A stretch of DNA of 64,000 nucleotides, from NCBI GenBank assembly GCA_964017235.1, contig OZ024933.1, positions 58,076,255 through 58,140,254 of the forward strand. The letters run 5' to 3'. Source of the stretch: Sabellastarte sp. h YS-2021. Taxonomy: Eukaryota; Annelida; Polychaeta; Sabellida; Sabellidae. How positions within the stretch are numbered: the stretch's first letter is position 1; the number at the start of each line of letters is the position of its first letter. The position numbers and the translations under genes were made by a program. Shown in pieces: positions 1-64,000 of the stretch. Under the pieces are notes generated by a model. That model ran no database searches and had not been told where the DNA came from. It saw only the letters and a list, made by a program, of their open reading frames with translations.

Positions 1-285
1 CTAAATACACGCAGAATTCAGTACTTGCATGAAAAGAACATCTAAAATAGTACTGATACAGATTGACAAGGTTTGAAATTAATTTGGAATTTGTAACAAT
101 ATATTTTTGTATGAATAAAAATGTTTAAATTGAAATTTCTAACACATATGACTGCTTTCACTTTTATAACTGCATGAATTTATACAGCAGTGTGTTCAAA
201 AGAAATATGTGCACGAGTACATTGTGGTCTCATCTCCCATACAGAACACTCTTGTCTTTCTCACAACAAAAATATTGATCAATTT

Positions 286-293
286 TGATGTCA
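286..293 (+). promoter_or_regulatory. Possible CRE/ATF-like upstream element of the SRP gene
   Basis: TGATGTCA lies 28-35 bp before the predicted RNA start and recurs at that place in nearly all units (AGATGTCA in copies 5 and 7, CGATGTCA in copy 10). It is one base from the CRE core TGACGTCA. Vertebrate 7SL genes use an upstream ATF/CRE-type site, but there it lies further upstream. The sequence match is seen; the function is inference. Confidence 0.35.
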
Positions 294-332
294 AAGACCA
301 GTCAGACAGCACTGTCTAATGGCTGGGAGTTG

Positions 333-390
333 TGGCGTGCTCCTGTAATCCAGTTACTTGGAAGCCTGAGTTGAAGGACATGTTGAGGGT
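333..390 (+). promoter_or_regulatory. Putative internal Pol III promoter region (weak A- and B-box-like)
   Basis: The segment around 333-343 aligns with the internal A-box region of human 7SL, and TGTTGAGGGT at 381-390 aligns with its weak B-box-like segment. Neither is a strong tRNA-type consensus, as is usual for 7SL genes, which also need upstream elements. The same region occurs in each gene copy. Confidence 0.35.
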
Positions 391-616
391 AGGAGCTCTG
401 TTGGTTACCTTCCTATGTTGATCAGGTGTCTGCACTAAGCTGTGCATCAATATGGTGGCCCTGGTGGAGACTTGGGTCACCAGGTTGTATAATGAGGGAC
501 GTACAGGCTCAGGGTGGAAACACAGCAGGCAGAAGTCTCCGTGTACAGCAGTAGTGAGATTGCACTTGTGAATAGGAGATATCTGGTAGCCTACTCAATA
601 CAGACGGACTCAACTC

Positions 617-620
617 TTTT
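617..620 (+). terminator. Pol III T4 terminator of SRP gene copy 1
   Basis: TTTT directly follows CAACTC, the strand that closes helix 5. All copies share this site; in nine copies a C-to-T change lengthens the run to six T. Confidence 0.8.
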
Positions 621-765
621 ACCCTTTCTCAGTAATTTGTTTTTATTTGCAGAGATGCTGATGTTTAATTCACATTCTTATTGCTGTCATATACAGTTCA
701 CACAAATGTCATTCCAATTAAATAGCCTACAAATGCATGAACATCATTAGTTTTATTTGTACTCG

Positions 766-1484
766 CTAAATACACGCAGAATTCAGTACTTGCATGAAAA
801 GAACATCTAAAATAGTACTGATACAGATTGACAAGGTTTGAAATTAATTTGAAAATTCTAACACATATGACTGCTTTCACTTTTATAACTGCATGAATTT
901 ATATAGCAGTGTGTTCAAAAGAAATATGTGCACGAGTACATTGTGGTCTCATCTCCCATACAGAACACTCTTGTCTTTCTCACAACAAAAATATTGATCA
1001 ATTTTGATGTCAAAGACCAGTCAGACATCACTGTCTAATGGCTGGGAGTTGTGGCGTGCTCCTGTAATCCAGTTACTTGGAAGCCTGAGTTGAAGGACAT
1101 CTTGAGGGTAGGAGCTCTGTTGGTTACCTTCCTATGTTGATCAGGTGTCTGCACTAAGCTGTGCATCAATATGGTGGTCCTGGTGGAGACTTGGTTCACC
1201 AGATTGTATAATGAGGGACGTACAGGCTCAGATTGGAAACACAGCAGGCAGAAGTCTCCATGTACAGCAGTAGTGAGATTGCACTTGTGAATAGGAGATA
1301 TCTGGTAGCCTACTCAATACAGACGGACTCAACTCTTTTACCCTTTCTCAGTAATTTGTTTTTATTTGCAGAGATGCTGATGTTTAATTCACATTCTTAT
1401 TGCTGTCATATACAGTTCACACAAATGTCATTCCAATTAAATAGCCTACAAATGCATGAACATCATTAGTTTTATTTGTACTCG
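766..1484 (+). repeat. Short unit (719 bp) with a spacer deletion
   Basis: Unit 2 lacks 46 bp of the AT-rich spacer around 851-856, where other units carry the segment with TATATTTTTG and GAATAAAAATG. Short TTG-type homology flanks the gap. The deleted part lies about 180 bp upstream of gene copy 2, so the proximal upstream region and the RNA gene are intact. No other complete unit is short. Confidence 0.9.
1040..1339 (+). ncRNA. 7SL: SRP RNA gene, copy 2 (class A variant)
   Basis: Helix 8 apex reads CAGATTG instead of CAGGGTG, so the SRP54 loop is CAGA/AGCA and one stem pair becomes U opposite C. Helix 6 has GGTGGTCC with GGTTCACC, which leaves one U-U mismatch. CCATG replaces CCGTG after helix 8. 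Confidence 0.85.
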
Positions 1485-1804
1485 CTAAATACACGCAGAA
1501 TTCAGTACTTGCATGAAAAGAACATCTAAAATAGTACTGATACAGATTGACAAGGTTTGAAATTAATTTGGAATTTGTAACAATATATTTTTGTATGAAT
1601 AAAAATGTTTAAATTGAAATTTCTAACACATATGACTGCTTTCACTTTTATAACTGCATGAATTTATATAGCAGTGTGTTCAAAAGAAATATGTGCACGA
1701 GTACATTGTGGTCTCATCTCCCATACAGAACACTCTTGTCTTTCTCACAACAAAAATATTGATCTATTTTGATGTCAAAGACCAGTCAGACAGCACTGTC
1801 TAAT
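1340..1804. other. Intergenic spacer between SRP genes (exemplar, 465 bp)
   Basis: This spacer type separates all gene copies. It is AT-rich. I recognise no tRNA, 5S rRNA, snRNA or protein gene in it. It holds a 7-bp inverted repeat CAGTACT...AGTACTG with a 23-nt loop near the unit start, an AT-rich block that differs between units (GTAACAATATATTTTTG versus GTAGCAATATATCTTTG), and a conserved block just before the RNA gene that probably contains upstream promoter elements. Confidence 0.75.
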
Positions 1805-2104
1805 GGCTGGGAGTTGTGGCGCGCTCCTGTAATCCAGTTACTTGGAAGCCTGAGTTGAAGGACATCTTGAGGGTAGGAGCTCTGCTGGTTACCTTCCTAT
1901 GTTGATCAGGTGTCTGCACTAAGCTGTGCATCAATATGGTGGCCCTGGTGGAGACTTGGGTCACCAGGTTGTATAATGAGGGACGTACAGGCTCAGGGTG
2001 GAAACACAGCAGGCAGAAGTCTCCGTGTACAGCAGTAGTGAGATTGCACTTGTGAATAGGAGATATCTGGTAGCCTACTCAATACAGACGGACTCAACTC
2101 TTTT
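1805..2104 (+). ncRNA. 7SL: SRP RNA gene, copy 3 (class G)
   Basis: SRP54 and SRP19 sites intact. Has GCGCGCTCC in place of GCGTGCTCC in the Alu domain. Confidence 0.92.
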
Positions 2105-2569
2105 ACCCTTTCTCAGTAATTTGTTTTTATTTGCAGAGATGCTGATGTTTAATTCACATTCTTATTGCTGTCATATACAGTTCACACAAATGTCATTCCA
2201 ATTAAATAGCCTACAAATGCATGAACATCATTAGTTTTATTTGTACTCGCTAAATACACGCAGAATTCAGTACTTGCATGAAAAGAACATCTAAAATAGT
2301 ACTGATACAGATTGACAAGGTTTGAAATTAATTTGGAATTTGTAACAATATATTTTTGTATGAATAAAAATGTTTAAATTGAAATTTCTAACACATATGA
2401 CTGCTTTCACTTTTATAACTGCATGAATTTATATAGCAGTGTGTTCAAAAGAAATATGTGCACGAGTACATTGTGGTCTCATCTCCCATACAGAACACTC
2501 TTGTCTTTCTCACAACAAAAATATTGATCTATTTTGATGTCAAAGACCAGTCAGACAGCACTGTCTAAT

Positions 2570-2869
2570 GGCTGGGAGTTGTTGCGCGCTCCTGTAATCC
2601 AGTTACTTGGAAGCCTGAGTTGAAGGACATCTTGAGGGTAGGAGCTCTGTTGGTTACCTTCCTATGTTGATCAGGTGTCTGCACTAAGCTGTGCATCAAT
2701 ATGGTGGTCCTGGTGGAGACTTGGTTCACCAGATTGTATAATGAGGGACGTGCAGGCTCAGATTGGAAACACAGCAGGCAGAAGTCTCCATGTACAGCAG
2801 TAGTGAGATTGCACTTGTGAATAGGAGATATCTGGTAGCCTACTCAATACAGACGGACTCAACTCTTTT
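2570..2869 (+). ncRNA. 7SL: SRP RNA gene, copy 4 (class A variant)
   Basis: Helix 8 apex CAGATTG. The Alu-domain loop GTGGCG is changed to GTTGCG, a private substitution in the SRP9/14-binding region, with GCGCGCTCC next to it. Helix 6 carries GGTGGTCC/GGTTCACC with one mismatch; GTGCAGG replaces GTACAGG. Several changes in functional sites make this a likely non-functional copy. Confidence 0.8.
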
Positions 2870-3334
2870 ACCCTTTCTCAGTAATTTGTTTTTATTTGCA
2901 GAGATGCTGATGTTTAATTCACATTCTTATTGCTGTCATATACAGTTCACACAAATGTCATTCCAATTAAATAGCCTACAAATGCATGAACATCATTAGT
3001 TTTATTTGTACTCGCTAAATACACGCAGAATTCAGTACTTGCATGAAAAGAACATCTAAAATAGTACTGATACAGATTGACAAGGTTTGAAATTAATTTG
3101 GAATTTGTAACAATATATTTTTGTATGAATAAAAATGTTTAAATTGAAATTTCTAACACATATGACTGCTTTCACTTTTATAACTGCATGAATTTATATA
3201 GCAGTGTGTTCAAAAGAAATATGTGCACGAGTACATTGTGGTCTCATCTCCCATACAGAACACTCTTGTCTTTCTCACAACAAAAATATTGATCAATTTA
3301 GATGTCAAAGACCAGTCAGACAGCACTGTCTAAT

Positions 3335-3634
3335 GGCTGGGAGTTGTGGCGTGCTCCTGTAATCCAGTTACTTGGAAGCCTGAGTTGAAGGACATGTTGA
3401 GGGTAGGAGCTCTGTTGGTTACCTTCCTATGTTGATCAGGTGTCTGCACTAAGCTGTGCATCAATATGGTGGCCCTGGTGGAGACTTGGGTCACCAGGTT
3501 GTATAATGAGGGACGTACAGGCTCAGGGTGGAAACACAGCAGGCAGAAGTCTCCGTGTACAGCAGTAGTGAGATTGCACTTGTGAATAGGAGATATCTGG
3601 TAGCCTACTCAATACAGACGGACTCAACTCTTTT
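3335..3634 (+). ncRNA. 7SL: SRP RNA gene, copy 5 (class G)
   Basis: Same RNA sequence type as copy 1, with intact SRP54 and SRP19 sites. The last gene before the LINE, which lies 298 bp downstream of its terminator. Confidence 0.92.
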
Positions 3635-3918
3635 ACCCTTTCTCAGTAATTTGTTTTTATTTGCAGAGATGCTGATGTTTCATTCACATTCTTATTGCTG
3701 TCATATACAGTTCACACAAATGTCATTCCAATTAAATAGCCTACAAATGCATGAACATCATTAGTTTTATTTGTACTCGCTAAATACACGCAGAATTCAG
3801 TACTTGCATGAAAAGAACATCTAAAATAGTACTGATACAGATTGACAAGGTTTGAAATTAATTTGGAATTTGTAACAATATATTTTTGTATGAATAAAAA
3901 TGTTTAAATTGAAATTTC

Positions 3919-3932
3919 TAACACATATGACT
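3919..3932. repeat. Target-site duplication of the LINE, left copy
   Basis: TAACACATATGACT, identical to 9749-9762. Uninterrupted units contain this sequence once, in the spacer. Confidence 0.95.
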
Positions 3933-4462
3933 CCCCCTGTGGGTCCGGGGATGTAGAATAGGCCCAACGTATCCTCCTGCGTGTCGTAAGAGGCGACTAA
4001 TTGGAGGCAGCCTGTTTGCCGTGGGTTGCGATCCGTGTCAGTGGAAGAGAGGGTCCTGGCTGTTGAGCCAATACTTTGTTGCGGCATTGAGGAGGCAATA
4101 CACAGCTTTGGCCTCAATTTCACTTAGTCGGAAGGTTAAGATGGCCTGGCTTAATCAATCGGCTGGTAGTGCCAAGCCCTAATACTCCAAATTAGTGATG
4201 GCTTGTTGTTTGTAATGGTTTATACTGTTGTACTTGATTGTTGTATTCTGATGGTGTTTGGTCTGTGCTTTGGTTTGGAGTATCTAGAAGGCGGCTGCTT
4301 AACAGGTCAATCAAGGTTCACTTTTTATGTGTTCTTTGAGTATATTGCTAATGTATCTCTGATATCAGTGTGCAGGGCTCAGCTCCACACTATTATGATA
4401 TCCCCTTATTGGGCTCGAAGGGTGGGTGGAGAGCATTGGCAACGAAAAATCTTTACTACATT
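3933..4462 (+). other. LINE 5' untranslated region
   Basis: GC-rich start CCCCCTGTGGGTCCGGGG, which can fold CCCC against GGGG, followed by AGAATAGGCCCAACG and GTCGTAAGAGGCGACTAA. I recall such 5' ends from many mollusc LINEs but cannot verify it here. LINEs of this type carry an internal promoter in the 5' UTR. Short open frames at 4203-4487 show no family features. Confidence 0.65.
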
Positions 4463-5692
4463 ATGGCAACTCAACACTCTCTACTGATTGATAGGAAAAG
4501 ATCTAGACCTGATATTACGACTACGGACTTTGATTCTGCTCAGATTTGCTCATGGCCACGTTTCCTGCTTATTAAAGGTACAAATGATGAAAGACCTTTA
4601 TACAAACTGTCACCATTTGCTGTTAACAAAGCCATTGTTGCTATACTTGGTTCTGATCCATTTAACATAAAGAAGTTAAGGAATGGAAGCATTTTGGTGG
4701 AAGTGGACAAGGAAACACAGAGCCAGAAATTACTGAAAACTACAAAATTGAATCTGACAATGGACAATGCTATCCCAATCGATGTTTCACCACATTACAG
4801 TTTAAACACTAAGAAAGGGGTCATTAGATGCCCAGACATAAAAGACTGTACTGATGACGAAATATTAGAAGGCCTGAAAACTGAAGGTGTCATCAAACTA
4901 GACAGGATTTCGGTATTTAGAGATGGACAGAGAAAACCAACAGGGACCTTTATATTGACATTTCAAAGCCAGACCTTACCTAAATACATCAGGGTGGGTT
5001 ACTATAGGGTGGCTGTGTCACAATTTATCCCAAATCCTGTGAGGTGCTACAAGTGTCAAAAGTTTGGTCATACTAAATTCAACTGCAGAAAGAATGAAGT
5101 TTGCACTAAATGTGGGCAAGAAGATCACACAGACCATCAAGAATGCAAGAATGAAGCAAAATGTGTCAATTGCCAAGGTAAGCATGAATCAAATAATAAA
5201 GAATGTCCAAAATGGAAAGAAGAAAAGGAAATTCAAAGAATCAAGACAGAAAGAGGAATTTCATACATAGAAGCGAAGAAACAGATGGACATATTTAATT
5301 CTGTGAAAACAACATATGCCCAGGCAGCTGCAGCAACCAAACCTGTGGTGAAAACAGCAACAGTGGAAACACAAACAGAAATGACTTGGCCAGAAGGCAC
5401 AAAACAACCAAAAAAGTGTGCAGTTGAAAAACAGACACCTAAAGTGACTAAAACAAGTTCATCAAGTCAGACAAGTGCATCTCAAAATGACCCTATTAAA
5501 CTGAAAATAAGTCAAAGCAAAGTATATTTGACGAAACAACATAAGGGATCTAATGACCCTATTAAACAATACAACAAATATGATGTTTTGAGTGATAGTG
5601 ACAGTGAAATGAGTGTCGAAGAATCCCCAATCACAAGTTCACAAGGGCGGAGTGGCAATAAAAGTGTAAATAATGGAACCAAACAAAAATAA
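4463..5692 (+). CDS. LINE ORF1: gag-like nucleic-acid-binding protein with three zinc knuckles
   Basis: A 409-residue protein from ATG 4463 (MATQHS). The frame stays open upstream to a GTG at 4370, but the first ATG is the likelier start. It probably coats the element RNA and acts as a nucleic acid chaperone. Residues about 30-190 form the gag-like region that precedes zinc knuckles in I and jockey elements and may have an RRM-like fold (inference). Three knuckles follow: CX2CX4HX4C at about 195-208, CX2CX4HX5C at 214-228 and CX2CX3HX6C at 234-248. Then comes a charged, Lys/Glu-rich stretch (250-275) and a low-complexity Thr/Ser/Gln/Lys-rich tail, probably disordered. The 3' end overlaps ORF2 by 20 nt in another frame. 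Confidence 0.9.
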   Translation: MATQHSLLIDRKRSRPDITTTDFDSAQICSWPRFLLIKGTNDERPLYKLSPFAVNKAIVAILGSDPFNIKKLRNGSILVEVDKETQSQKLLKTTKLNLTMDNAIPIDVSPHYSLNTKKGVIRCPDIKDCTDDEILEGLKTEGVIKLDRISVFRDGQRKPTGTFILTFQSQTLPKYIRVGYYRVAVSQFIPNPVRCYKCQKFGHTKFNCRKNEVCTKCGQEDHTDHQECKNEAKCVNCQGKHESNNKECPKWKEEKEIQRIKTERGISYIEAKKQMDIFNSVKTTYAQAAAATKPVVKTATVETQTEMTWPEGTKQPKKCAVEKQTPKVTKTSSSSQTSASQNDPIKLKISQSKVYLTKQHKGSNDPIKQYNKYDVLSDSDSEMSVEESPITSSQGRSGNKSVNNGTKQK

Positions 5693-8600
5693 AAGTATAA
5701 TACAGTGGAACTGTCGTGGCTTTAGGCCAAATTTTGAAGAAATTAAAAATTTAATTTCCAATTTTAGACCCTACATTTTAGCATTACAGGAAACTCATTT
5801 TAAAGAAACAGATAATGTAAATATTAGAGGATTTGATCATTATTTTAAAACTTGTATGTCTGAAGTAGATGGGAGAGCCACTGGTGGCTGCTCTATTTTT
5901 GTTAAGAAAGGTATACCCCATGAGGTACTTGAGTTAGATACAGAACTGCAGACAGTTGCTGTAAAAGTATCTCTGCATAAAACTATAACTGTATGTAATG
6001 TATATATTCCACCACGTTTTAATGTTGCACAAAGTGATATTGATAATCTAGTCAACCAGTTACCTGCACCTTTTCTATTTATTGGAGATTTTAATGCACA
6101 TAGTGATTTGTGGGGTTGTTCCTCGTCTAATAGTTTAGGCTATAAGGTGGAACATCTTCTTGAATCCTCAAATATTTGTTTACTTAATGATAAGTCACCT
6201 ACCTACTTTCATCCTGCATCAGGTTCATTCACCTCAATAGATTTGTCTTTATGTTCTGCATCTGTTTTTCTTGATTTTACATGGCAGGTCCATTCAGATC
6301 AGTGTGGTAGTGACCATTTTCCTATTTTAATTGATATAGTTAAGAGTATGCCTAAGGACAATGTTCCTCGTTGGAATCTTAAAAAGGCTGATTGGCCAAA
6401 ATTCAAACTTCAGTGTTCTCTGGATATTAATAGACATAATTTTACTGACTCTACAGAAAAGTTTCCTGCATTTTTAAATAAGTTAAATGACATAGCAACA
6501 AAATGTGTGCCAAAGTCAACTGGACAGTCCACTGGTAGCTACAAACCATGGTTCAACAGTGAATGCAAAAAAGCTGTTAAGGCTCGTCAAAATGCAATGG
6601 ATAAATGCCGTATAAATCCTACATCGGATAACATAAATGCATATAAAACCTGTCGAGCTAATGCTCGTAAAATAATTAAAGAAAATAAAAGGAAATCGTG
6701 GCATGAATATGTATCAAAACTAAATGTAAAGACACCAGCAAAGAAGGTATGGGAAATGATAAGGAAAATAAGTGGCAAACAAAGTAACACCACAATACAC
6801 CATCTGGAAAATAATGATGGGACAAAAGTAACAGAAAGAGTTGATATAGCAAATAGGTTGGCCGAAGAAATCCACAAGAATTCTAGCAGCAACAATTACC
6901 GTACAGAGTTTCAAAAATATAAAGAGAAAACTGAAAAAGAACACTTGGATTTTGACACAGACAACTCTGAAAACTACAATGTACCATTTACAATTAGAGA
7001 ACTATGTGATGCTATGAAAAAGTCTCATGATACAGCCACTGGTCCAGATGAGATCCATTATCAGCTGCTAAAACATCTACCAAGAGACTCACTTATGGTG
7101 TTACTTGATGTATTTAATGATATATGGGCTTCAGGTGAAATTCCTGAATGCTGGAAAGAGGCCACTGTAATACCTATTTCTAAACCAGGCAAAGACCCAA
7201 AAAACCCGTCCAATTACCGCCCCATATCTCTGACGAGCTGTTTATGCAAAACCATGGAAAGAATGAGTAATACTAGACTAGTTTGGTTCCTTGAGAAAAA
7301 TAATATTTTAACAAAATATCAAAGTGGTTTTAGAAAAGGTCGAACTACAACAGACCAATTAATAAGACTTGAATCTTTTATTAGAGATTCCTTTTTAAAA
7401 GGCAACCATGTAGTCTCTGTATTTTTTGATTTAGAAAAAGCCTACGATACAGTATGGAAGTATGGCGTTATAAGAGATCTACATAAAGTAGGCCTAAGGG
7501 GGCGAATGCCCATGTTTATTCAGAATTTTTTATCAAACAGAGTTTTTAGAGTTCGTTTAGGATCCGTTTATTCAGATATACATGGGCAAGAGATGGGTGT
7601 TCCCCAGGGCAGCATCCTCTCTGTTACATTATTTATTTTAAAGATTAACAGTATTGCTGATGTGATTCCAGCTAGCTTTGAAAAGTCTCTTTTTGTTGAT
7701 GATTTCTCAATCACTTGTTCTTCTAGAAATATGGCTTCAATAGAAAGGCAACTTCAATTGTGTTTGAATAAAGTAGAGAAATGGGCTGATGAAAATGGTT
7801 TTAAATTTTCTAAAACCAAAACTGTTTGCATGCATTTCTGTAATAAAAGAAAACTTCATCCAGACCCAACATTGACAATATATAACTCACAAATCCCTGT
7901 TGTGTCACAAACTAAGTTCCTTGGTGTTATATTTGACAGTAAACTGAATTTTAAGGCACACATTGATTATATTCGCCAGAAATGTGAAAAAGCCATGAAC
8001 TTACTGAAAGTAGTTGCCAAAATGGATTGGGGAGCAGATAGAAGTGTTTTAATGAGACTTTATCGTTCATTTGTTCGTTCTAGATTGGACTATGGTTGTG
8101 CTGTTTTTAGTTCTGCTCGTAAGTCTTATCTTAAGAAATTGGAACCCATTCAAAACCAGGGCTTGAGAATATGCCTGGGAGCCTTCAGGACTTCTCCAAT
8201 GCAAAGCTTGTATGTAGAGGCAAATGAGCCACCCTTGTATTTAAGGTTTGATAAATTATGTATTCAGTATGCTTTGAAATTGAGAAGTAATCCTGACAAT
8301 CCAGCTTACGATGTTGTTTTTAACCCTCAGTTATATGATCTGTATGATAAGAAACCATCTGCAATAAGATCTTTTGGGCATCGAGTAGAGGAAGATTTTT
8401 CTGTTGTCTGTCCTCAGCTGGATCTAATTCAGACTGTGTCATTGCCAGATGACCCACCCTGGACTATACAGAAACCTCACATAGACTTATATCTCACACA
8501 TCAAAAGAAACATCTTGGTGATGATTGTATGTTTCAAAGTCTATTTGCTGAGTTAAGAAGCTATTACTCTGACCATAGGGCTATATATACTGATGGATCG

Positions 8601-9377
8601 AAAACAGAAAATAGGGTTGCTGCAGCTGCTACATCTGATGGCCTCAGTGCCCAGGTCAGACTTCCTGGCAATGCTAGCATATTCACAGCTGAATTACAGG
8701 CTCTGAAAATGGCTTTTAATATAGTTAAAAATTGTGATGAGGATCGTTTTATCATATTTTGTGACTCTTTATCTAGTCTTCAAGCTCTTGATAGCAACAA
8801 CTGTGATCATCCTTTTATTCAAGATATTTTAAAGCTTTTTAATGATTGTTGTTCAGTAAATAAGAAAGTTGTTTTAGCTTGGGTTCCTAGTCATGTAGGC
8901 ATAAAGGGCAATGAAAAAGCAGATGAGCTTGCCAAACAGGCCTTGAATTTTAATGTTTTAGACTTGAAAGTCCCCTATACAGACTTGAAAGTAAATGTAA
9001 ATAGTGTTTTTAAACAGAAGTGGCAAGCTCAATGGAATGCGTGTCCTGATAATAAACTATTCCAAATAAACCCTACTGTTGGAGATTTTTATTTTTGGAC
9101 GGATTTATCTCGTAGGGAAGAAATAGTTATAACACGAGCCCGTATAGGACACACTTATTTCACCCATAGTTATCTGTTGAAAGGTGAAGATATGCCCTGG
9201 TGCATTCCATGTCATTGTCCTGATACAGTGAAACACATATTACTAGACTGTATCGACCTACGTGACACAAGAATTAAATACTATAGAAACATAAATAATT
9301 TAAAAGACTTACTATATGGAAACATTAAAGTTATATGTAATTATTTAAAAGAATGTGGATTATTTTATAAATTTTAG
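5673..9377 (+). CDS. LINE ORF2: APE endonuclease, reverse transcriptase, RNase H polyprotein
   Basis: A 1234-residue protein that nicks target DNA, primes reverse transcription there and can degrade the RNA strand. Endonuclease, about 8-222: QWNCRG (Asn13), LQET (Glu40), GDFNAH (Asp139, Asn141), GSDHFP (Asp214, His215). Reverse transcriptase, about 490-765: NYRPISL, SGFRKGRTTTDQL, FFDLEKAYD (catalytic Asp586), GVPQGS (642-647), FVDD (catalytic Asp676, Asp677). RNase H, about 968-1090: YTDGS (Asp974), TAELQAL (Glu1007), CDSLSSLQAL (Asp1031), WVPSHVGIKGNEKADELA (His1074, Asp1084). C-terminal knuckle CX2CX7HX4C at 1177-1193. All catalytic residues are present and no frameshift or stop interrupts it. 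ATG 5673 lies 20 nt upstream of the ORF1 stop end, which suggests termination-reinitiation or a +1 shift for translation. The length is typical of RNase H-bearing I-group elements. Confidence 0.95.
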   Translation: MEPNKNKSIIQWNCRGFRPNFEEIKNLISNFRPYILALQETHFKETDNVNIRGFDHYFKTCMSEVDGRATGGCSIFVKKGIPHEVLELDTELQTVAVKVSLHKTITVCNVYIPPRFNVAQSDIDNLVNQLPAPFLFIGDFNAHSDLWGCSSSNSLGYKVEHLLESSNICLLNDKSPTYFHPASGSFTSIDLSLCSASVFLDFTWQVHSDQCGSDHFPILIDIVKSMPKDNVPRWNLKKADWPKFKLQCSLDINRHNFTDSTEKFPAFLNKLNDIATKCVPKSTGQSTGSYKPWFNSECKKAVKARQNAMDKCRINPTSDNINAYKTCRANARKIIKENKRKSWHEYVSKLNVKTPAKKVWEMIRKISGKQSNTTIHHLENNDGTKVTERVDIANRLAEEIHKNSSSNNYRTEFQKYKEKTEKEHLDFDTDNSENYNVPFTIRELCDAMKKSHDTATGPDEIHYQLLKHLPRDSLMVLLDVFNDIWASGEIPECWKEATVIPISKPGKDPKNPSNYRPISLTSCLCKTMERMSNTRLVWFLEKNNILTKYQSGFRKGRTTTDQLIRLESFIRDSFLKGNHVVSVFFDLEKAYDTVWKYGVIRDLHKVGLRGRMPMFIQNFLSNRVFRVRLGSVYSDIHGQEMGVPQGSILSVTLFILKINSIADVIPASFEKSLFVDDFSITCSSRNMASIERQLQLCLNKVEKWADENGFKFSKTKTVCMHFCNKRKLHPDPTLTIYNSQIPVVSQTKFLGVIFDSKLNFKAHIDYIRQKCEKAMNLLKVVAKMDWGADRSVLMRLYRSFVRSRLDYGCAVFSSARKSYLKKLEPIQNQGLRICLGAFRTSPMQSLYVEANEPPLYLRFDKLCIQYALKLRSNPDNPAYDVVFNPQLYDLYDKKPSAIRSFGHRVEEDFSVVCPQLDLIQTVSLPDDPPWTIQKPHIDLYLTHQKKHLGDDCMFQSLFAELRSYYSDHRAIYTDGSKTENRVAAAATSDGLSAQVRLPGNASIFTAELQALKMAFNIVKNCDEDRFIIFCDSLSSLQALDSNNCDHPFIQDILKLFNDCCSVNKKVVLAWVPSHVGIKGNEKADELAKQALNFNVLDLKVPYTDLKVNVNSVFKQKWQAQWNACPDNKLFQINPTVGDFYFWTDLSRREEIVITRARIGHTYFTHSYLLKGEDMPWCIPCHCPDTVKHILLDCIDLRDTRIKYYRNINNLKDLLYGNIKVICNYLKECGLFYKF

Positions 9378-9683
9378 CAATCTAATTTATTTGGTATTGT
9401 CGTAATTTTTGTTAAGTTATTGTGTGTTTTCTAGTTTTCTTGTTTTATCTGTGATATATGTATATCTATTTTGTGTAGTCTAGTCGTATTTGTATTCTAT
9501 TGTATTATGATATATTTTATATTTTCTATGTTATTTTTACTTTCCTTATCTAGTCATTTATTTTGGTTTTTTGACCAGTAAAGTGTATTGTATTTCTATT
9601 GATTGTTTTTTGTATAGTTCTCCATTTTACTTGTATTTATTGATGTTGTATATATTTTAGTTAATGTACTTATTAGTTTTAAT

Positions 9684-9715
9684 GGTGCTGTATGACACCA
9701 AGGTGTTTAAGCACC
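9684..9715 (+). promoter_or_regulatory. Paired 3' hairpins of the LINE, probable RT recognition structure
   Basis: Two consecutive short hairpins: GGTG...CACC (9684-9699) and GGTG...CACC (9702-9715), which can also pair across the pair as GGTGCT with AGCACC. They sit just before the terminal repeats, the usual place where a LINE reverse transcriptase recognises its own RNA. The folding is visible; the role is inferred. Confidence 0.5.
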
Positions 9716-9723
9716 AAAATTTT

Positions 9724-9748
9724 TTAACTTAACTTAACTTAACTTAAC
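9724..9748 (+). repeat. LINE terminal microsatellite (TTAAC)5
   Basis: Five perfect TTAAC units form the 3' end instead of poly(A). I-group elements commonly end in short simple repeats. Confidence 0.95.
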
Positions 9749-9762
9749 TAACACATATGACT
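9749..9762. repeat. Target-site duplication of the LINE, right copy
   Basis: TAACACATATGACT, identical to 3919-3932. One C further left could be counted in the duplication because the TTAAC tail also ends in C. Confidence 0.95.
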
Positions 9763-9929
9763 GCTTTCACTTTTATAACTGCATGAATTTATATAGCAGT
9801 GTGTTCAAAAGAAATATGTGCACGAGTACATTGTGGTCTCATCTCCCATACAGAACACTCTTGTCTTTCTCACAACAAAAATATTGATCAATTTTGATGT
9901 CAAAGACCAGTCAGACAGCACTGTCTAAT

Positions 9930-13124: not shown

Positions 13125-13137
13125 TGGCCCTGGTGGA
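13125..13137. repeat. Target-site duplication of the SINE, left copy
   Basis: TGGCCCTGGTGGA, repeated at 13299-13311. Intact class G genes have it once, in helix 6. Confidence 0.95.
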
Positions 13138-54008: not shown

Positions 54009-54473
54009 ACCCTTTCTCAGTAATTTGTTTTTATTTGCAGAGATGCTGATGTTTAATTCACATTCTTATTGCTGTCATATACAGTTCACACAAATGTCAT
54101 TCCAATTAAATAGCCTACAAATGCATGAACATCATTAGTTTTATTTGTACTCGCTAAATACATGCAGAATTCAGTACTTGCATGAAAAGAACATCTAAAA
54201 TAGTACTGATACAGATTGACAAGGTTTGAAATTAATTTGGAATTTGTAACAATATATTTTTGTATGAATAAAAATGTTTAAATTGAAATTTCTTTCACAT
54301 ATGACTGCTTTCACTTTTATAACTGCATGAATTTATATAGCAGTGTGTTCAAAAGAAATATGTGCACGAGTACATTGTGGTCTCATCTCCCATACAGAAC
54401 ACTCTTGTCTTTCTCACAACAAAAATATTGATCTATTTTGATGTCAAAGACCAATCAGACAGCACTGTCTAAT

Positions 54474-54773
54474 GGCTGGGAGTTGTGGCGTGCTCCTGTA
54501 ATCCAGTTACTTGGAAGCCTGAGTTGAAGGACATCTTGAGGGTAGGAGCTCTGCTGGTTACCTTCCTATGTTGATCAGGTGTCTGCACTAAGCTGTGCAT
54601 CAATATGGTGGCCCTGGTGGAGACTTGGGTCACCAGGTTGTATAATGAGGGACGTACAGGCTCAGGGTGGAAACACAGCAGGCAGAAGTCTCCGTGTACA
54701 GCAGTAGTGAGATTGCACTTGTGAATAGGAGATATCTGGTAGCCTACTCAATACAGACGGACTCAACTCTTTT
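54474..54773 (+). ncRNA. 7SL: SRP RNA gene, copy 64 (class G, consensus)
   Basis: Consensus over the RNA gene. The upstream region has CCAATCAGACAG in place of CCAGTCAGACAG. Confidence 0.92.
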
Positions 54774-55238
54774 ACCCTTTCTCAGTAATTTGTTTTTATT
54801 TGCAGAGATGCTGATGTTTCATTCACATTCTTATTGCTGTCATATACAGTTCACACAAATGTCATTCCAATTAAATAGCCTACAAATGCATGAACATCAT
54901 TAGTTTTATTTGTACTCGCTAAATACACGCAGAATTCAGTACTTGCATGAAAAGAACATCTAAAATAGTACTGATACAGATTGACAAGGTTTGAAATTAA
55001 TTTGGAATTTGTAACAATATATTTTTGTATGAATAAAAATGTTTAAATTGAAATTTCTAACACATATGACTGCTTTCACTTTTATAACTGCATGAATTTA
55101 TATAGCAGTGTGTTCAAAAGAAATATGTGCACGAGTACATTGTGGTCTCATCTCCCATACAGAACACTCTTGTCTTTCTCACAACAAAAATATTGATCTA
55201 TTTTGATGTCAAAGACCAGTCAGACAGCACTGTCTAAT

Positions 55239-55538
55239 GGCTGGGAGTTGTGGCGTGCTCCTGTAATCCAGTTACTTGGAAGCCTGAGTTGAAGGACATC
55301 TTGAGGGTAGGAGCTCTGCTGGTTACCTTCCTATGTTGATCAGGTGTCTGCACTAAGCTGTGCATCAATATGGTGGCCCTGGTGGAGACTTGGGTCACCA
55401 GGTTGTATAATGAGGGACGTACAGGCTCAGGGTGGAAACACAGCAGGCAGAAGTCTCCGTGTACAGCAGTAGTGAGATTGCACTTGTGAATAGGAGATAT
55501 CTGGTAGCCTACTCAATACAGACGGACTCAACTTTTTT
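55239..55538 (+). ncRNA. 7SL: SRP RNA gene, copy 65 (class G, T6 terminator)
   Basis: Core sites intact, six-T terminator, and ATTAGCTTTATT in the spacer downstream. Duplicated as copy 69. Confidence 0.92.
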
Positions 55539-56003
55539 ACCCTTTCTCAGTAATTTGTTTTTATTTGCAGAGATGCTGATGTTTAATTCACATTCTTATT
55601 GCTGTCATATACAGTTCACACAAATGTCATTCCAATTAAATAGCCTACAAATGCATGAACATCATTAGCTTTATTTGTACTCGCTAAATACACGCAGAAT
55701 TCAGTACTTGCATGAAAAGAACATCTAAAATAGTACTGATACAGATTGACAAGGTTTGAAATTAATTTGGAATTTGTAGCAATATATCTTTGTATGAATA
55801 AAAATGTTTAAATTGAAATTTCTAACACATATGACTGCTTTCACTTTTATAACTGCATGAATTTATATAGCAGTGTGTTCAAAAGAAATATGTGCATGAG
55901 TACATTGTGGTCTCATCTCCCATACAGAACACTCTTGTCTTTCTCACAACAAAAATATTGATCTATTTTGATGTCAAAGACCAGTCAGACAGCACTGTCT
56001 AAT

Positions 56004-56303
56004 GGCTGGGAGTTGTGGCGTGCTCCTGTAATCCAGTTACTTGGAAGCCTGAGTTGAAGGACATCTTGAGGGTAGGAGCTCTGCTGGTTACCTTACTATG
56101 TTGATCAGGTGTGTGCACTAAGCTGTGCATCAATATGGTGGCCCTGGTGGAGACTTGGGTCACCAGGTTGTATAATGAGGGACGTACAGGCTCAGGGTGA
56201 AAACACAGCAGGCAGAAGTCTCCGTGTACAGCAGTAGTGAGATTGCACTTGTGAATAGGAGATATCTGGTAGCCTGCTCAATACAGACGGACTCAACTCT
56301 TTT
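56004..56303 (+). ncRNA. 7SL: SRP RNA gene, copy 66 (helix 8 tetraloop mutated)
   Basis: GTGAAAACAC replaces GTGGAAACAC: the GAAA tetraloop becomes AAAA while CAGG/AGCA stays. Also GTGTGTGCAC for GTGTCTGCAC, TTACTATG, and GCCTGCTC for GCCTACTC. Same set in copy 70. Confidence 0.87.
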
Positions 56304-56768
56304 ACCCTTTCTCAGTAATTTGTTTTTATTTGCAGAGATGCTGATGTTTTATTTACATTCTTATTGCTGTCATATACAGTTCACACAAATGTCATTCCAA
56401 TTAAATAGCCTACAAATGCATGAACATCATTAGTTTTATTTGTACTCGCTAAATACACGCAGAATTCAGTACTTGCATGAAAAGAACATCTAAAATAGTA
56501 CTGATACAGATTGACAAGGTTTGAAATTAATTTGGAATTTGTAACAATATATTTTTGTATGAATAAAAATGTTTAAATTGAAATTTCTAACACATATGAC
56601 TGCTTTCACTTTTATAACTGCATGAATTTATATAGCAGTGTGTTCAAAAGAAATATGTGCACGAGTACATTGTGGTCTCATCTCCCATACAGAACACTCT
56701 TGTCTTTCTCACAACAAAAATATTGATCAATTTTGATGTCAAAGACCAGTCAGACAGCACTGTCTAAT

Positions 56769-57068
56769 GGCTGGGAGTTGTGGCGTGCTCCTGTAATCCA
56801 GTTACTTGGAAGCCTGAGTTGAAGGACATCTTGAGGGTAGGAGCTCTGTTGGTTACCTTCCTATGTTGATCAGGTGTCTGCACTAACCTGTGCATCAATA
56901 TGGTGGTCCTGGTGGAGACTTGGGTCACCAGATTGTATAATGAGGGACGTACAGGCTCAGATTGGAAACACAGCAGGCAGAAGTCTCCGTGTACAGCAGT
57001 AGTGAGATTGCACTTGTGAATAGGAGATATCTGGTAGCCTACTCAATACAGACGGACTCAACTCTTTT
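56769..57068 (+). ncRNA. 7SL: SRP RNA gene, copy 67 (class A variant)
   Basis: CAGATTG apex, GGTCC, CACCAGATTG, and CACTAACCTG in place of the conserved CACTAAGCTG. Same set in copy 71. Confidence 0.83.
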
Positions 57069-57533
57069 ACCCTTTCTCAGTAATTTGTTTTTATTTGCAG
57101 AGATGCTGATGTTTAATTCACATTCTTATTGCTGTCATATACAGTTCACACAAATGTCATTCCAATTAAATAGCCTACAAATGCATGAACATCATTAGTT
57201 TTATTTGTACTCGCTAAATACACGCAGAATTCAGTACTTGCATGAAAAGAACATCTAAAATAGTACTGATACAGATTGACAAGGTTTGAAATTAATTTGG
57301 AATTTGTAGCAATATATCTTTGTATGAATAAAAATGTTTAAATTGAAATTTCTAACACATATGACTGCTTTCACTTTTATAACTGCATGAATTTATATAG
57401 CAGTGTGTTCAAAAGAAATATGTGCATGAGTACATTGTGGTCTCATCTCCCACACAGAACACTCTTGTCTTTCTTACAACAAAAATATTGATCTATTTTG
57501 ATGTCAAAGACCAGTCAGACAGCACTGTCTAAT

Positions 57534-57833
57534 GGCTGGGAGTTGTGGCGTGCTCCTGTAATCCAGTTACTTGGAAGCCTGAGTTGAAGGACATCTTGAG
57601 GGTAGGAGCTCTGCTGGTTACCTTCCTATGTTGATCAGGTGTCTGCACTAAGCTGTGCATCAATATGGTGGCCCTGGTGGAGACTTGGGTCACCAGGTTG
57701 TATAATGAGGGACGTACAGGCTCAGGGTGGAAACACAGCAGGCAGAAGTCTCCGTGTACAGCAGTAGTGAGATTGCACTTGTGAATAGGAGATATCTGGT
57801 AGCCTACTCAATACAGACGGACTCAACTCTTTT
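57534..57833 (+). ncRNA. 7SL: SRP RNA gene, copy 68 (class G, consensus)
   Basis: Consensus over the RNA gene. The upstream spacer has private CCCACACAG and TTCTTACAAC changes. Confidence 0.93.
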
Positions 57834-58298
57834 ACCCTTTCTCAGTAATTTGTTTTTATTTGCAGAGATGCTGATGTTTCATTCACATTCTTATTGCTGT
57901 CATATACAGTTCACACAAATGTCATTCCAATTAAATAGCCTACAAATGCATGAACATCATTAGTTTTATTTGTACTCACTAAATACACGCAGAATTCAGT
58001 ACTTGCATGAAAAGAACATCTAAAATAGTACTGATACAGATTGACAAGGTTTGAAATTAATTTGGAATTTGTAACAATATATTTTTGTATGAATAAAAAT
58101 GTTTAAATTGAAATTTCTAACACATATGACTGCTTTCACTTTTATAACTGCATGAATTTATATAGCAGTGTGTTCAAAAGAAATATGTGCACGAGTACAT
58201 TGTGGTCTCATCTCCCATACAGAACACTCTTGTCTTTCTCACAACAAAAATATTGATCTATTTTGATGTCAAAGACCAGTCAGACAGCACTGTCTAAT

Positions 58299-58598
58299 GG
58301 CTGGGAGTTGTGGCGTGCTCCTGTAATCCAGTTACTTGGAAGCCTGAGTTGAAGGACATCTTGAGGGTAGGAGCTCTGCTGGTTACCTTCCTATGTTGAT
58401 CAGGTGTCTGCACTAAGCTGTGCATCAATATGGTGGCCCTGGTGGAGACTTGGGTCACCAGGTTGTATAATGAGGGACGTACAGGCTCAGGGTGGAAACA
58501 CAGCAGGCAGAAGTCTCCGTGTACAGCAGTAGTGAGATTGCACTTGTGAATAGGAGATATCTGGTAGCCTACTCAATACAGACGGACTCAACTTTTTT
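58299..58598 (+). ncRNA. 7SL: SRP RNA gene, copy 69 (class G, T6 terminator)
   Basis: Duplicate of copy 65, 3060 bp downstream, with the same T6 terminator and ATTAGCTTTATT. Confidence 0.92.
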
Positions 58599-59063
58599 AC
58601 CCTTTCTCAGTAATTTGTTTTTATTTGCAGAGATGCTGATGTTTAATTCACATTCTTATTGCTGTCATATACAGTTCACACAAATGTCATTCCAATTAAA
58701 TAGCCTACAAATGCATGAACATCATTAGCTTTATTTGTACTCGCTAAATACACGCAGAATTCAGTACTTGCATGAAAAGAACATCTAAAATAGTACTGAT
58801 ACAGATTGACAAGGTTTGAAATTAATTTGGAATTTGTAGCAATATATCTTTGTATGAATAAAAATGTTTAAATTGAAATTTCTAACACATATGACTGCTT
58901 TCACTTTTATAACTGCATGAATTTATATAGCAGTGTGTTCAAAAGAAATATGTGCATGAGTACATTGTGGTCTCATCTCCCATACAGAACACTCTTGTCT
59001 TTCTCACAACAAAAATATTGATCTATTTTGATGTCAAAGACCAGTCAGACAGCACTGTCTAAT

Positions 59064-59363
59064 GGCTGGGAGTTGTGGCGTGCTCCTGTAATCCAGTTAC
59101 TTGGAAGCCTGAGTTGAAGGACATCTTGAGGGTAGGAGCTCTGCTGGTTACCTTACTATGTTGATCAGGTGTGTGCACTAAGCTGTGCATCAATATGGTG
59201 GCCCTGGTGGAGACTTGGGTCACCAGGTTGTATAATGAGGGACGTACAGGCTCAGGGTGAAAACACAGCAGGCAGAAGTCTCCGTGTACAGCAGTAGTGA
59301 GATTGCACTTGTGAATAGGAGATATCTGGTAGCCTGCTCAATACAGACGGACTCAACTCTTTT
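59064..59363 (+). ncRNA. 7SL: SRP RNA gene, copy 70 (helix 8 tetraloop mutated)
   Basis: Duplicate of copy 66 with the AAAA tetraloop, GTGTGTGCAC and GCCTGCTC. Confidence 0.87.
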
Positions 59364-59828
59364 ACCCTTTCTCAGTAATTTGTTTTTATTTGCAGAGATG
59401 CTGATGTTTTATTTACATTCTTATTGCTGTCATATACAGTTCACACAAATGTCATTCCAATTAAATAGCCTACAAATGCATGAACATCATTAGTTTTATT
59501 TGTACTCGCTAAATACACGCAGAATTCAGTACTTGCATGAAAAGAACATCTAAAATAGTACTGATACAGATTGACAAGGTTTGAAATTAATTTGGAATTT
59601 GTAACAATATATTTTTGTATGAATAAAAATGTTTAAATTGAAATTTCTAACACATATGACTGCTTTCACTTTTATAACTGCATGAATTTATATAGCAGTG
59701 TGTTCAAAAGAAATATGTGCACGAGTACATTGTGGTCTCATCTCCCATACAGAACACTCTTGTCTTTCTCACAACAAAAATATTGATCAATTTTGATGTC
59801 AAAGACCAGTCAGACAGCACTGTCTAAT

Positions 59829-60128
59829 GGCTGGGAGTTGTGGCGTGCTCCTGTAATCCAGTTACTTGGAAGCCTGAGTTGAAGGACATCTTGAGGGTAG
59901 GAGCTCTGTTGGTTACCTTCCTATGTTGATCAGGTGTCTGCACTAACCTGTGCATCAATATGGTGGTCCTGGTGGAGACTTGGGTCACCAGATTGTATAA
60001 TGAGGGACGTACAGGCTCAGATTGGAAACACAGCAGGCAGAAGTCTCCGTGTACAGCAGTAGTGAGATTGCACTTGTGAATAGGAGATATCTGGTAGCCT
60101 ACTCAATACAGACGGACTCAACTCTTTT
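59829..60128 (+). ncRNA. 7SL: SRP RNA gene, copy 71 (class A variant)
   Basis: Duplicate of copy 67, with CACTAACCTG and the CAGATTG apex. Confidence 0.83.
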
Positions 60129-60593
60129 ACCCTTTCTCAGTAATTTGTTTTTATTTGCAGAGATGCTGATGTTTAATTCACATTCTTATTGCTGTCATAT
60201 ACAGTTCACACAAATGTCATTCCAATTAAATAGCCTACAAATGCATGAACATCATTAGTTTTATTTGTACTCGCTAAATACACGCAGAATTCAGTACTTG
60301 CATGAAAAGAACATCTAAAATAGTACTGATACAGATTGACAAGGTTTGAAATTAATTTGGAATTTGTAGCAATATATCTTTGTATGAATAAAAATGTTTA
60401 AATTGAAATTTCTAACACATATGACTGCTTTCACTTTTATAACTGCATGAATTTATATAGCAGTGTGTTCAAAAGAAATATGTGCATGAGTACATTGTGG
60501 TCTCATCTCCCATACAGAACACTCTTGTCTTTCTCACAACAAAAATATTGATCTATTTTGATGTCAAAGACCAGTCAGACAGCACTGTCTAAT

Positions 60594-60893
60594 GGCTGGG
60601 AGTTGTGGCGTGCTCCTGTAATCCAGTTACTTGGAAGCCTGAGTTGAAGGACATCTTGAGGGTAGGAGCTCTGCTGGTTACCTTACTATGTTGATCAGGT
60701 GTCTGCACTAAGCTGTGCATCAATATGGTGGCCCTGGTGGAGACTTGGGTCACCAGGTTGTATAATGAGGGACGTACAGGCTCAGGGTGGAAACACAGCA
60801 GGCAGAAGTCTCCGTGTACAGCAGTAGTGAGATTGCACTTGTGAATAGGAGATATCTGGTAGCCTACTCAATACAGACGGACTCAACTCTTTT
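60594..60893 (+). ncRNA. 7SL: SRP RNA gene, copy 72 (class G, TTACTATG type)
   Basis: Core sites intact, TTACTATG allele. The spacer after it carries CAGTTCTTGC, shared with the spacer after copy 74. Confidence 0.92.
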
Positions 60894-61358
60894 ACCCTTT
60901 CTCAGTAATTTGTTTTTATTTGCAGAGATGCTGATGTTTCATTCACATTCTTATTGCTGTCATATACAGTTCACACAAATGTCATTCCAATTAAATAGCC
61001 TACAAATGCATGAACATCATTAGTTTTATTTGTACTCGCTAAATACACGCAGAATTCAGTTCTTGCATGAAAAGAACATCTAAAATAGTACTGATACAGA
61101 TTGACAAGGTTTGAAATTAATTTGGAATTTGTAACAATATATTTTTGTATGAATAAAAATGTTTAAATTGAAATTTCTAACACATATGACTGCTTTGACT
61201 TTTATAACTGCATGAATTTATATAGCAGTGTGTTCAAAAGAAATATGTGCACGAGTACATTGTGGTCTCATCTCCCATACAGAACACTCTTGTCTTTCTC
61301 ACAACAAAAATATTGATCTATTTTGATGTCAAAGACCAGTCAGACAGCACTGTCTAAT

Positions 61359-61658
61359 GGCTGGGAGTTGTGGCGTGCTCCTGTAATCCAGTTACTTGGA
61401 AGCCTGAGTTGAAGGACATCTTGAGGGTAGGAGCTCTGCTGGTTACCTTCCTATGTTGATCAGGTGTCTGCACTAAGCTGTGCATCAATATGGTGGTCCT
61501 GGTGGAGACTTGGGTCACCAGGTTGTTTAATGAGGGACGTACAGGCTCAGATTGGAAACACAGCAGGCAGAAGTCTCCGTGTACAGCAGTAGTGAGATTG
61601 CACTTGTGAATAGGAGATATCTGGTAGCCTACTCAATACAGACGGACTCAACTCTTTT
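61359..61658 (+). ncRNA. 7SL: SRP RNA gene, copy 73 (class A variant, GTTTA type)
   Basis: CAGATTG apex with GGTCC and GTTTAATG. The spacer downstream has the TTTCATTC allele usually linked to class G, suggesting a conversion tract. Confidence 0.85.
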
Positions 61659-62123
61659 ACCCTTTCTCAGTAATTTGTTTTTATTTGCAGAGATGCTGAT
61701 GTTTCATTCACATTCTTATTGCTGTCATATACAGTTCACACAAATGTCATTCCAATTAAATAGCCTACAAATGCATGAACATCATTAGTTTTATTTGTAC
61801 TCGCTAAATACACGCAGAATTCAGTACTTGCATGAAAAGAACATCTAAAATAGTACTGATACAGATTGACAAGGTTTGAAATTAATTTGGAATTTGTAGC
61901 AATATATCTTTGTATGAATAAAAATGTTTAAATTGAAATTTCTAACACATATGACTGCTTTCACTTTTATAACTGCATGAATTTATATAGCAGTGTGTTC
62001 AAAAGAAATATGTGCATGAGTACATTGTGGTCTCATCTCCCATACAGAACACTCTTGTCTTTCTCACAACAAAAATATTGATCTATTTTGATGTCAAAGA
62101 CCAGTCAGACAGCACTGTCTAAT

Positions 62124-62423
62124 GGCTGGGAGTTGTGGCGTGCTCCTGTAATCCAGTTACTTGGAAGCCTGAGTTGAAGGACATCTTGAGGGTAGGAGCT
62201 CTGCTGGTTACCTTACTATGTTGATCAGGTGTCTGCACTAAGCTGTGCATCAATATGGTGGCCCTGGTGGAGACTTGGGTCACCAGGTTGTATAATGAGG
62301 GACGTACAGGCTCAGGGTGGAAACACAGCAGGCAGAAGTCTCCGTGTACAGCAGTAGTGAGATTGCACTTGTGAATAGGAGATATCTGGTAGCCTACTCA
62401 ATACAGACGGACTCAACTCTTTT
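62124..62423 (+). ncRNA. 7SL: SRP RNA gene, copy 74 (class G, TTACTATG type)
   Basis: Core sites intact, TTACTATG allele. Confidence 0.92.
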
Positions 62424-62888
62424 ACCCTTTCTCAGTAATTTGTTTTTATTTGCAGAGATGCTGATGTTTCATTCACATTCTTATTGCTGTCATATACAGT
62501 TCACACAAATGTCATTCCAATTAAATAGCCTACAAATGCATGAACATCATTAGTTTTATTTGTACTCGCTAAATACACGCAGAATTCAGTTCTTGCATGA
62601 AAAGAACATCTAAAATAGTACTGATACAGATTGACAAGGTTTGAAATTAATTTGGAATTTGTAACAATATATTTTTGTATGAATAAAAATGTTTAAATTG
62701 AAATTTCTAACACATATGACTGCTTTGACTTTTATAACTGCATGAATTTATATAGCAGTGTGTTCAAAAGAAATATGTGCACGAGTACATTGTGGTCTCA
62801 TCTCCCATACAGAACACTCTTGTCTTTCTCACAACAAAAATATTGATCTATTTTGATGTCAAAGACCAGTCAGACAGCACTGTCTAAT

Positions 62889-63188
62889 GGCTGGGAGTTG
62901 TGGCGTGCTCCTGTAATCCAGTTACTTGGAAGCCTGAGTTGAAGGACATCTTGAGGGTAGGAGCTCTGCTGGTTACCTTCCTATGTTGATCAGGTGTCTG
63001 CACTAAGCTGTGCATCAATATGGTGGTCCTGGTGGAGACTTGGGTCACCAGGTTGTTTAATGAGGGACGTACAGGCTCAGATTGGAAACACAGCAGGCAG
63101 AAGTCTCCGTGTACAGCAGTAGTGAGATTGCACTTGTGAATAGGAGATATCTGGTAGCCTACTCAATACAGACGGACTCAACTCTTTT
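62889..63188 (+). ncRNA. 7SL: SRP RNA gene, copy 75 (class A variant, GTTTA type)
   Basis: CAGATTG apex with GGTCC and GTTTAATG; 1530 bp after copy 73. Confidence 0.85.
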
Positions 63189-63653
63189 ACCCTTTCTCAG
63201 TAATTTGTTTTTATTTGCAGAGATGCTGATGTTTAATTCACATTCTTATTGCTGTCATATACAGTTCACACAAATGTCATTCCAATTAAATAGCCTACAA
63301 ATGCATGAACATCATTAGTTTTATTTGTACTCGCTAAATACACGCAGAATTCAGTACTTGCATGAAAAGAACATCTAAAATAGTACTGATACAGATTGAC
63401 AAGGTTTGAAATTAATTTGGAATTTGTAACAATATATTTTTGTATGAATAAAAATGTTTAAATTGAAATTTCTAACACATATGACTGCTTTCACTTTTAT
63501 AACTGCATGAATTTATATAGCAGTGTGTTCAAAAGAAATATGTGCATGAGTACATTGTGGTCTCATCTCCCATACAGAACACTCTTGTCTTTCTCACAAC
63601 AAAAATATTGATCTATTTTGATGTCAAAGACCAGTCAGACAGCACTGTCTAAT

Positions 63654-63953
63654 GGCTGGGAGTTGTGGCGTGCTCCTGTAATCCAGTTACTTGGAAGCCT
63701 GAGTTGAAGGACATCTTGAGGGTAGGAGCTCTGCTGGTTACCTTACTATGTTGATCAGGTGTCTGCACTAAGCTGTGCATCAATATGGTGGCCCTGGTGG
63801 AGACTTGGGTCACCAGGTTGTATAATGAGGGACGTACAGGCTCAGGGTGGAAACACAGCAGGCAGAAGTCTCCGTGTACAGCAGTAGTGAGATTGCACTT
63901 GTGAATAGGAGATATCTGGTAGCCTACTCAATACAGACGGACTCAACTCTTTT
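63654..63953 (+). ncRNA. 7SL: SRP RNA gene, copy 76 (class G, TTACTATG type)
   Basis: Core sites intact. Complete to its TTTT, with 47 bp of spacer before the window ends. Confidence 0.92.
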
Positions 63954-64000
63954 ACCCTTTCTCAGTAATTTGTTTTTATTTGCAGAGATGCTGATGTTTC

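Follow-up and report, generated by a model that had tools for sequence, protein, structure and literature searches.

The tandem array of SRP RNA genes

The stretch analysed here, referred to as the window, comprises 64,000 nucleotides of the annelid Sabellastarte sp. h YS-2021 (contig OZ024933.1, here C7, positions 58,076,255-58,140,254 of the 1.786-Gb assembly GCA_964017235.1), and it is filled by tandemly repeated genes for the signal recognition particle (SRP, or 7SL) RNA, which directs newly synthesised proteins to the cellular export machinery. The initial annotation of this DNA, made from the letters alone, had proposed a tandem array of at least 76 such genes and predicted that a covariance-model search would return about 76 plus-strand matches 765 bp apart. 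Both statements were confirmed by a cmscan search against Rfam, which revealed 76 matches to the Metazoa_SRP family (RF00017), all on the + strand, with scores of 229.8-260.7 bits (gathering score 70 bits). All 76 copies span model positions 1-299, and every copy is a full-length match above the gathering score. The copies are spaced at 765 bp with the exception of one 719-bp unit resulting from a 46-bp spacer deletion, one 939-bp interval with a short interspersed nuclear element (SINE) within a gene, and one 6595-bp interval produced by a 5.8-kb retrotransposon without long terminal repeats (non-LTR). The earlier claim of a full-length gene in each unit stands for model coverage, although the 161-bp SINE interrupts one copy (12991-13462). 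The array features of the window are as follows.

1..3932, + strand: array block 1, composed of 765-bp units, with genes of 298 nt each starting at 322, 1041, 1806, 2571 and 3336; its second unit lacks 46 bp of spacer
9748..13137, + strand: array block 2, with genes starting at 9931, 10696, 11461, 12226 and 12991 (the last one split by the SINE)
13299..64000, + strand: array block 3, with genes starting at 13930, 14695 and 15460, followed at 765-bp steps by those from 16225 through 63655
19285..19582, + strand: representative consensus-type SRP RNA gene (260.7 bits, positions 1-299 of RF00017)
1041..1338, + strand: representative B-class copy, with CAGATT in helix 8, not CAGGGT
286..293, + strand: sequence TGATGTCA resembling a cyclic AMP response element (CRE), at -36..-29 of the gene
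617..620, + strand: RNA polymerase III (Pol III) terminator TTTT at the 3' end of the gene

Across the surrounding region (C7:57,970,001-58,210,000), the whole array occupies 195,216 bp (C7:57,986,253-58,181,468), with no unit on the - strand, and is bounded on both sides by other DNA. The array had been described as open at both ends, which is true at the window edges but not in the assembly. Its copy number is 244, since 29-mers of the gene start, helix 8 and the spacer each occur 244 times (up to three mismatches); the gene span is unbroken in 240 copies (blast), and 227 units are complete. With all units head-to-tail on one strand and a mean pairwise identity of 98.8% (227 units), the array is homogenised. 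The part beyond the window was scanned with RF00017 in 10-kb pieces, where copies cut by piece ends or insertions score lower, such as the copy at L023:676 (162.7 bits). The ribosomal DNA (rDNA)-like organisation and the SRP RNA identity proposed earlier therefore hold on a larger scale than stated (244 copies, 195 kb). Searches for contaminant relatives gave no matches in viral_contigs and none in genome_contigs.

Each 765-bp unit combines a 467-bp spacer of low GC content (30.6%) with a 298-nt gene at 50% GC. The exact CRE-like sequence is present in 221 of the 227 complete units, a suggestive likeness only. Human 7SL genes have their CRE at -50/-43 and, near -30, a TATA-like box (PMC7279448). 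The gene ends in four or more consecutive T residues in 226 of 227 units. Internal A and B boxes gave weak and uninformative matches.

The window also contains two inserted elements.

3933..9747, + strand: full-length-looking non-LTR retrotransposon (5815 bp) in a spacer, with a (TTAAC)n tail
3918-3932 and 9748-9762: its 15-bp target duplication CTAACACATATGACT
4463..5692, + strand: its open reading frame (ORF) 1, first ATG to stop (open frame from 4352), with a CCHC-knuckle-like region by eye
5673..9377, + strand: its ORF2, first ATG to stop, encoding endonuclease, reverse transcriptase and RNase H
13138..13298, - strand: SINE of 161 bp splitting the gene copy 12991-13462, with the 13-bp target duplication TGGCCCTGGTGGA

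Joining the flanks of the retrotransposon restores an empty site. The (TTAAC)n tail of the retrotransposon meets a target starting with CTAAC. ORF1 has no Pfam match (scanned from 4466), and the ORF2 open frame extends over 5670-9377 (1235 aa). Because both frames are open and the 15-bp duplication is perfect, this insertion is probably recent. The SINE looks tRNA-like by eye; ARAGORN found no tRNA genes in the window. By eye, one SINE family accounts for at least three array insertions with target duplications, at 13138-13298, C7:58160138-58160289 and C7:58004804-58004839, the last one being a short piece only. Two further elements interrupt array genes (by eye): the one at C7:58170910-58172615 is a LINE-like fragment that ends in a (TTCTA)n tail, and the one at C7:58173438-58173570 is short and has a tail resembling (AAATA)n.

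Near the right end of the array, a 793-bp segment (C7:58180037-58180829) lies between the last units. Its start resembles the right flank (91.7% over 145 bp) and its farther part the left flank (69-79%), which suggests that it is perhaps a relic of an older, longer ancestral unit at the array edge. Outside the array, a Gypsy-like element is located about 7 kb to the left (open frames read by eye), a match to the histone 3' untranslated region stem-loop (RF00032, 35.1 bits, gathering score 34) about 7 kb to the right (L024:8106-8151), and a frame matching 7tm_3 about 22 kb to the right.

A second SRP RNA gene and the dispersed gene-start fragments

In the whole assembly, the helix-8 29-mer (up to three mismatches) occurs 245 times, with 244 forward matches in the array and a single reverse match in a gene at C2:99,381,779-99,382,076 (263.9 bits), hereafter the C2 gene. 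This is the sole other intact SRP RNA gene found, in a family search that scored 26 of 13,294 candidates and a C2 DNA search that scored 40 of 292, so genes more than three mismatches away in the helix-8 motif could be missed. Its internal A and B boxes match as weakly as those of the array genes, and no CRE-like site was seen by eye in the 120 nt upstream.

The alignment of the array consensus with the C2 gene is gap-free and shows 79 differences over 298 sites. Nevertheless, each forms 99 standard pairs out of the 120 pairs of the model. Between them, both partners are changed in 24 pairs and a single partner in 21, with five pairs broken only in the array and five only in C2. When the same changes were placed randomly on sites with the same base, 78.4 ± 3.6 pairs were formed and none of 20,000 trials reached 99; the reverse direction gave 79.2 ± 3.6 pairs, again with no trial reaching 99 (this null takes no account of CpG context or neighbour effects). 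The retention of pairs across 79 differences suggests that both lineages evolved as structured SRP RNA for much of their separation. It also rules out an array that arose as a satellite without a functional past. Departures from the capital-letter consensus of Rfam are found at 3 of 68 positions in the array and 6 of 68 in C2.

Sequences from the start of the gene also occur elsewhere in the genome. They were searched for using the first 29 nt of the gene preceded by letters unlike the upstream bases of the array (a reversed-pattern control gave 0 matches). The pattern was found at 29 places, comprising the C2 gene, one array-end copy and 27 dispersed fragments, none of which is a full gene. 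In 19 of the 27, the match ends at nt 54-58, with the other eight ending at 35-52, 59 and 65. At the bases separating the two gene types, 26 fragments are array-type, one (L048) is undecided and none is C2-type. They differ from the array consensus at 54 of 1458 bases, and five carry no difference. Counted over the whole assembly, gene positions 27-55 (up to two mismatches) have 311 matches (271 + 40) compared to 244 in the array, leaving 67 dispersed places, some of which are among the 27 fragments; the C2-type equivalent (up to three mismatches) occurs only in the C2 gene itself.

Nine further fragments outside the 27, a non-random sample of exact matches on C1-C3, all end at nt 55-60 (eight of them within nt 54-58), and three of these (L059, L062 and L063) continue past a small break. 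About five of these nine, which were found without the first search pattern, look 5'-truncated; that pattern favoured 5' ends at the RNA start. Altogether, 27 of the 36 fragments examined (L029-L064) end at nt 54-58, and the 36 loci form a small family of 5'-end pieces of about 56 nt with no A tail by eye. A spacer 29-mer (-64 to -36), the only one by which spacer occurrence outside the array was judged, and the gene 3' end are found 244 times each, solely in the array. The base preceding the gene start is the array's G in 20 of the 27 fragments, and the second preceding base is its T in 15 of 27, although the search pattern disfavoured T, which would place the 5' end of the RNA at these upstream G/T bases. 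As a set, the two flanks of the fragments share longer words than shuffled partners do (4.63 versus 3.78 bases; 0 of 1000 shuffles), and clear target site duplications are present only in a few fragments such as L050.

With a start near the gene start, one main stop point and none of the tested spacer, these fragments have the form expected of reverse-transcribed RNA, and could hardly be dispersed bits of array DNA. Because they are array-type, the germline probably produced array-type RNA, and the lack of C2-type pieces together with the presence of unmutated ones suggests that this RNA was available until recently.

Weighing a working array against a satellite

We favour, with moderate confidence, the interpretation that the array is a genuine multicopy SRP RNA locus of about 244 head-to-tail units, whose copies are individually expendable. 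In this scenario, the genome had two old SRP RNA genes, of which one is the single-copy C2 gene and the other, long separated from it, would have been amplified, with the array growing by unequal exchange from a single working gene. Array RNA would have been transcribed in the germline at a date recent enough for some fragments to remain unmutated, and would still be produced and assembled into SRP today. Since many copies share the load, each of them could drift almost freely and damaged variants would accumulate. Roughly half of the copies appear able to make normal SRP RNA: by a definition of our own choice, namely 98 or more pairs together with consensus tips in the Alu domain, helix 6 and helix 8, 111 of 227 units qualify. 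The gene is identical to the consensus in 42 of 227 units.

Several observations weigh against this interpretation, beginning with the variation among copies. In functional rDNA-like arrays, the gene is better conserved among copies than the spacer. Here, constraint among the copies is not visible, and gene and spacer vary alike. Among the 227 complete units (gaps excluded), variable sites number 77 in the gene (of 298) and 102 in the spacer (of 467), with nucleotide diversities of 0.0147 and 0.0096, respectively. Stratified by base, the 77 variable gene sites compare with 78.1 expected (z -0.21), and conserved positions are as variable as the others (16 of 65 versus 61 of 233). Pairs are broken by 46 of 90 distinct gene variants, with 43.5 ± 3.8 expected from random placement. 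Compensation among copies was detected as two-sided standard changes only at pair 138-155 (TA in four units, GT in one), which also has one two-sided non-standard change. A 5S ribosomal RNA (rRNA) array from the same genome, taken as a control, is far more uniform, with 59 of 67 full genes identical and 6 of 119 columns variable in a 40-kb piece. Its variable sites in gene and spacer number 5/119 and 2/100 in 219-bp units and 0/119 and 8/863 in 982-bp units (z = 0.67 and -1.22); better conservation of the gene is not seen here either, and the variants are so few that the test is weak. The units of this 5S array (C1:43720001-43760000, L065-L068) fall mainly into two sizes, 219 and 982 bp.

Further objections come from the gene itself. 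The initial annotation had placed the helix-8 CAGG loop in every unit, which proved incorrect: G192A is found in 28 and G193T in 29 of the 76 window copies (74 and 77 of 227 units in the whole array). The two changes affect the loop to which SRP54 binds and disrupt the pair that closes it, at bases important for SRP54 binding. The exact consensus helix-8 tip (the SRP54-binding symmetric loop CAGG/AGCA) is copy-dependent, being present in 144 of 227 units; by eye, the B-class units are concentrated around the array centre. An early TTTT occurs inside the gene in 7 of 227 units. The array is CpG-poor, with observed/expected ratios of 0.22 in the gene and 0.28 in the spacer, compared to 0.83 in the C2 gene and 0.29 to 0.65 in other DNA examined. 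This depletion fits germline methylation of the array and does not separate an active array from a silent one.

The C2 gene is the other challenge. It is closer than the array to the Rfam consensus (206 versus 195 of 298 positions), it matches that consensus at 34 of the 79 differing sites (the array at 23), and its predicted fold is more stable (-124.3 versus -106.0 kcal/mol). This intact gene could supply all SRP RNA. A separate 7SL locus providing all SRP RNA, with the array copies silent, had been named at the outset as the finding that would count against the array; half of this holds, in so far as a separate intact 7SL locus exists on C2. Moreover, the dispersed fragments are a sign that array-type sequence was transcribed in the past, rather than a sign of present array activity.

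These observations are what would be expected if the array were a satellite derived from a once-working SRP RNA paralogue, with the C2 gene as the source of SRP RNA and the array silent or nearly so: constraint among copies is absent, one third of them have an altered SRP54 site, CpG loss is strong in gene and spacer alike, and a separate gene is intact and folds more stably. We consider this a serious but less probable explanation, because no dispersed fragment is C2-type, whereas 26 of 27 are array-type and 5 of 27 unmutated. In addition, the consensus of the array is undamaged and 42 of 227 genes match it exactly, and terminators are present, whether or not selection keeps them. The earlier choice between high-dosage supply and a satellite is only partly settled, as the sequence points to both, with a founder selected as SRP RNA and, judging by the dispersed fragments, transcribed in the germline, and copies that then drift freely.

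By analogy with oocyte and somatic 5S rRNA, a broader model can be envisaged in which two ancient SRP RNA systems coexist, the 244-copy array providing bulk supply for the germline or egg and the single divergent gene serving elsewhere, with the array RNA or its 56-nt 5' piece feeding the family of retro-inserted fragments; we regard it as rather unlikely. Slightly more doubtful is the division of labour as such, with the array used in the germline or oocyte and C2 in somatic cells. Xenopus has separate oocyte and somatic 5S genes, and oocyte 5S arrays have AT-rich spacers and many defective copies, features which the present array shares. Both lineages have kept their structure over 26% divergence, and the resolved germline fragments are array-type with none C2-type. 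However, such fragments would also arise if the array were used everywhere. Finally, an assembly artefact is very improbable given the 159 different sequences among 227 complete units, the several different transposable element insertions and the other DNA on both sides, although tandem repeats are easily mis-assembled and the exact copy number may be off.

Implications and relationship to known systems

The multicopy locus that we favour would mean that SRP RNA, usually regarded as a low-copy gene with few loci in animals, can be organised in the manner of 5S genes or rDNA, here as a 195-kb array paired with an intact single-copy paralogue 26% different from it. Twelve bases between nt 30 and 60 separate array-type from C2-type RNA, so that SRP dosage, tolerance of copy number and possible sub-specialisation are testable by ordinary RNA-seq. 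Full-text literature searches, largely outside subscription journals, found no tandem array of SRP RNA genes in an animal.

The array genes resemble animal 7SL/SRP RNA genes (RF00017) in encoding an RNA of 298-299 nt with an Alu domain, a GGAG tip on helix 6, helix 8 and a Pol III terminator, but number about 244 in tandem where a few loci are usual. Tandem 5S rRNA arrays, including the one in this genome (C1 from 43.72 Mb), share with it the head-to-tail Pol III genes, short units and many copies; 5S copies, however, are nearly identical (59/67), in contrast to 42/227 in the SRP RNA array. Because its gene is not better conserved than its spacer, we class the array only as working like an rDNA array, not as a member of that group.

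Schistosoma mansoni has eight probable SRP RNA candidates, one of them almost canonical (PMC2770079). Another comparable system is the 4.5SH RNA genes of mouse-like rodents, 7SL-related Pol III genes which originated from the B1 SINE and number in the hundreds, every copy lying in a tandemly repeated unit of 4-5 kb (PMC10137851). They share with the array the 7SL relationship, the tandem arrangement and copies in the hundreds, whereas the 765-bp unit described here holds a complete SRP RNA gene.

The dispersed fragments can be compared with the tailless retropseudogenes, which the cited description presents as mammalian, L1-dependent and known from therian genomes (PMC5322556). On the features given there, both are dispersed and have a preferred 3' cut, many of the fragments may be complete or nearly so at the 5' end, and they carry no A tail by eye. 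The fragments differ in deriving from one RNA with one main end near nt 56, which falls in a paired stretch of the model and not in a loop.

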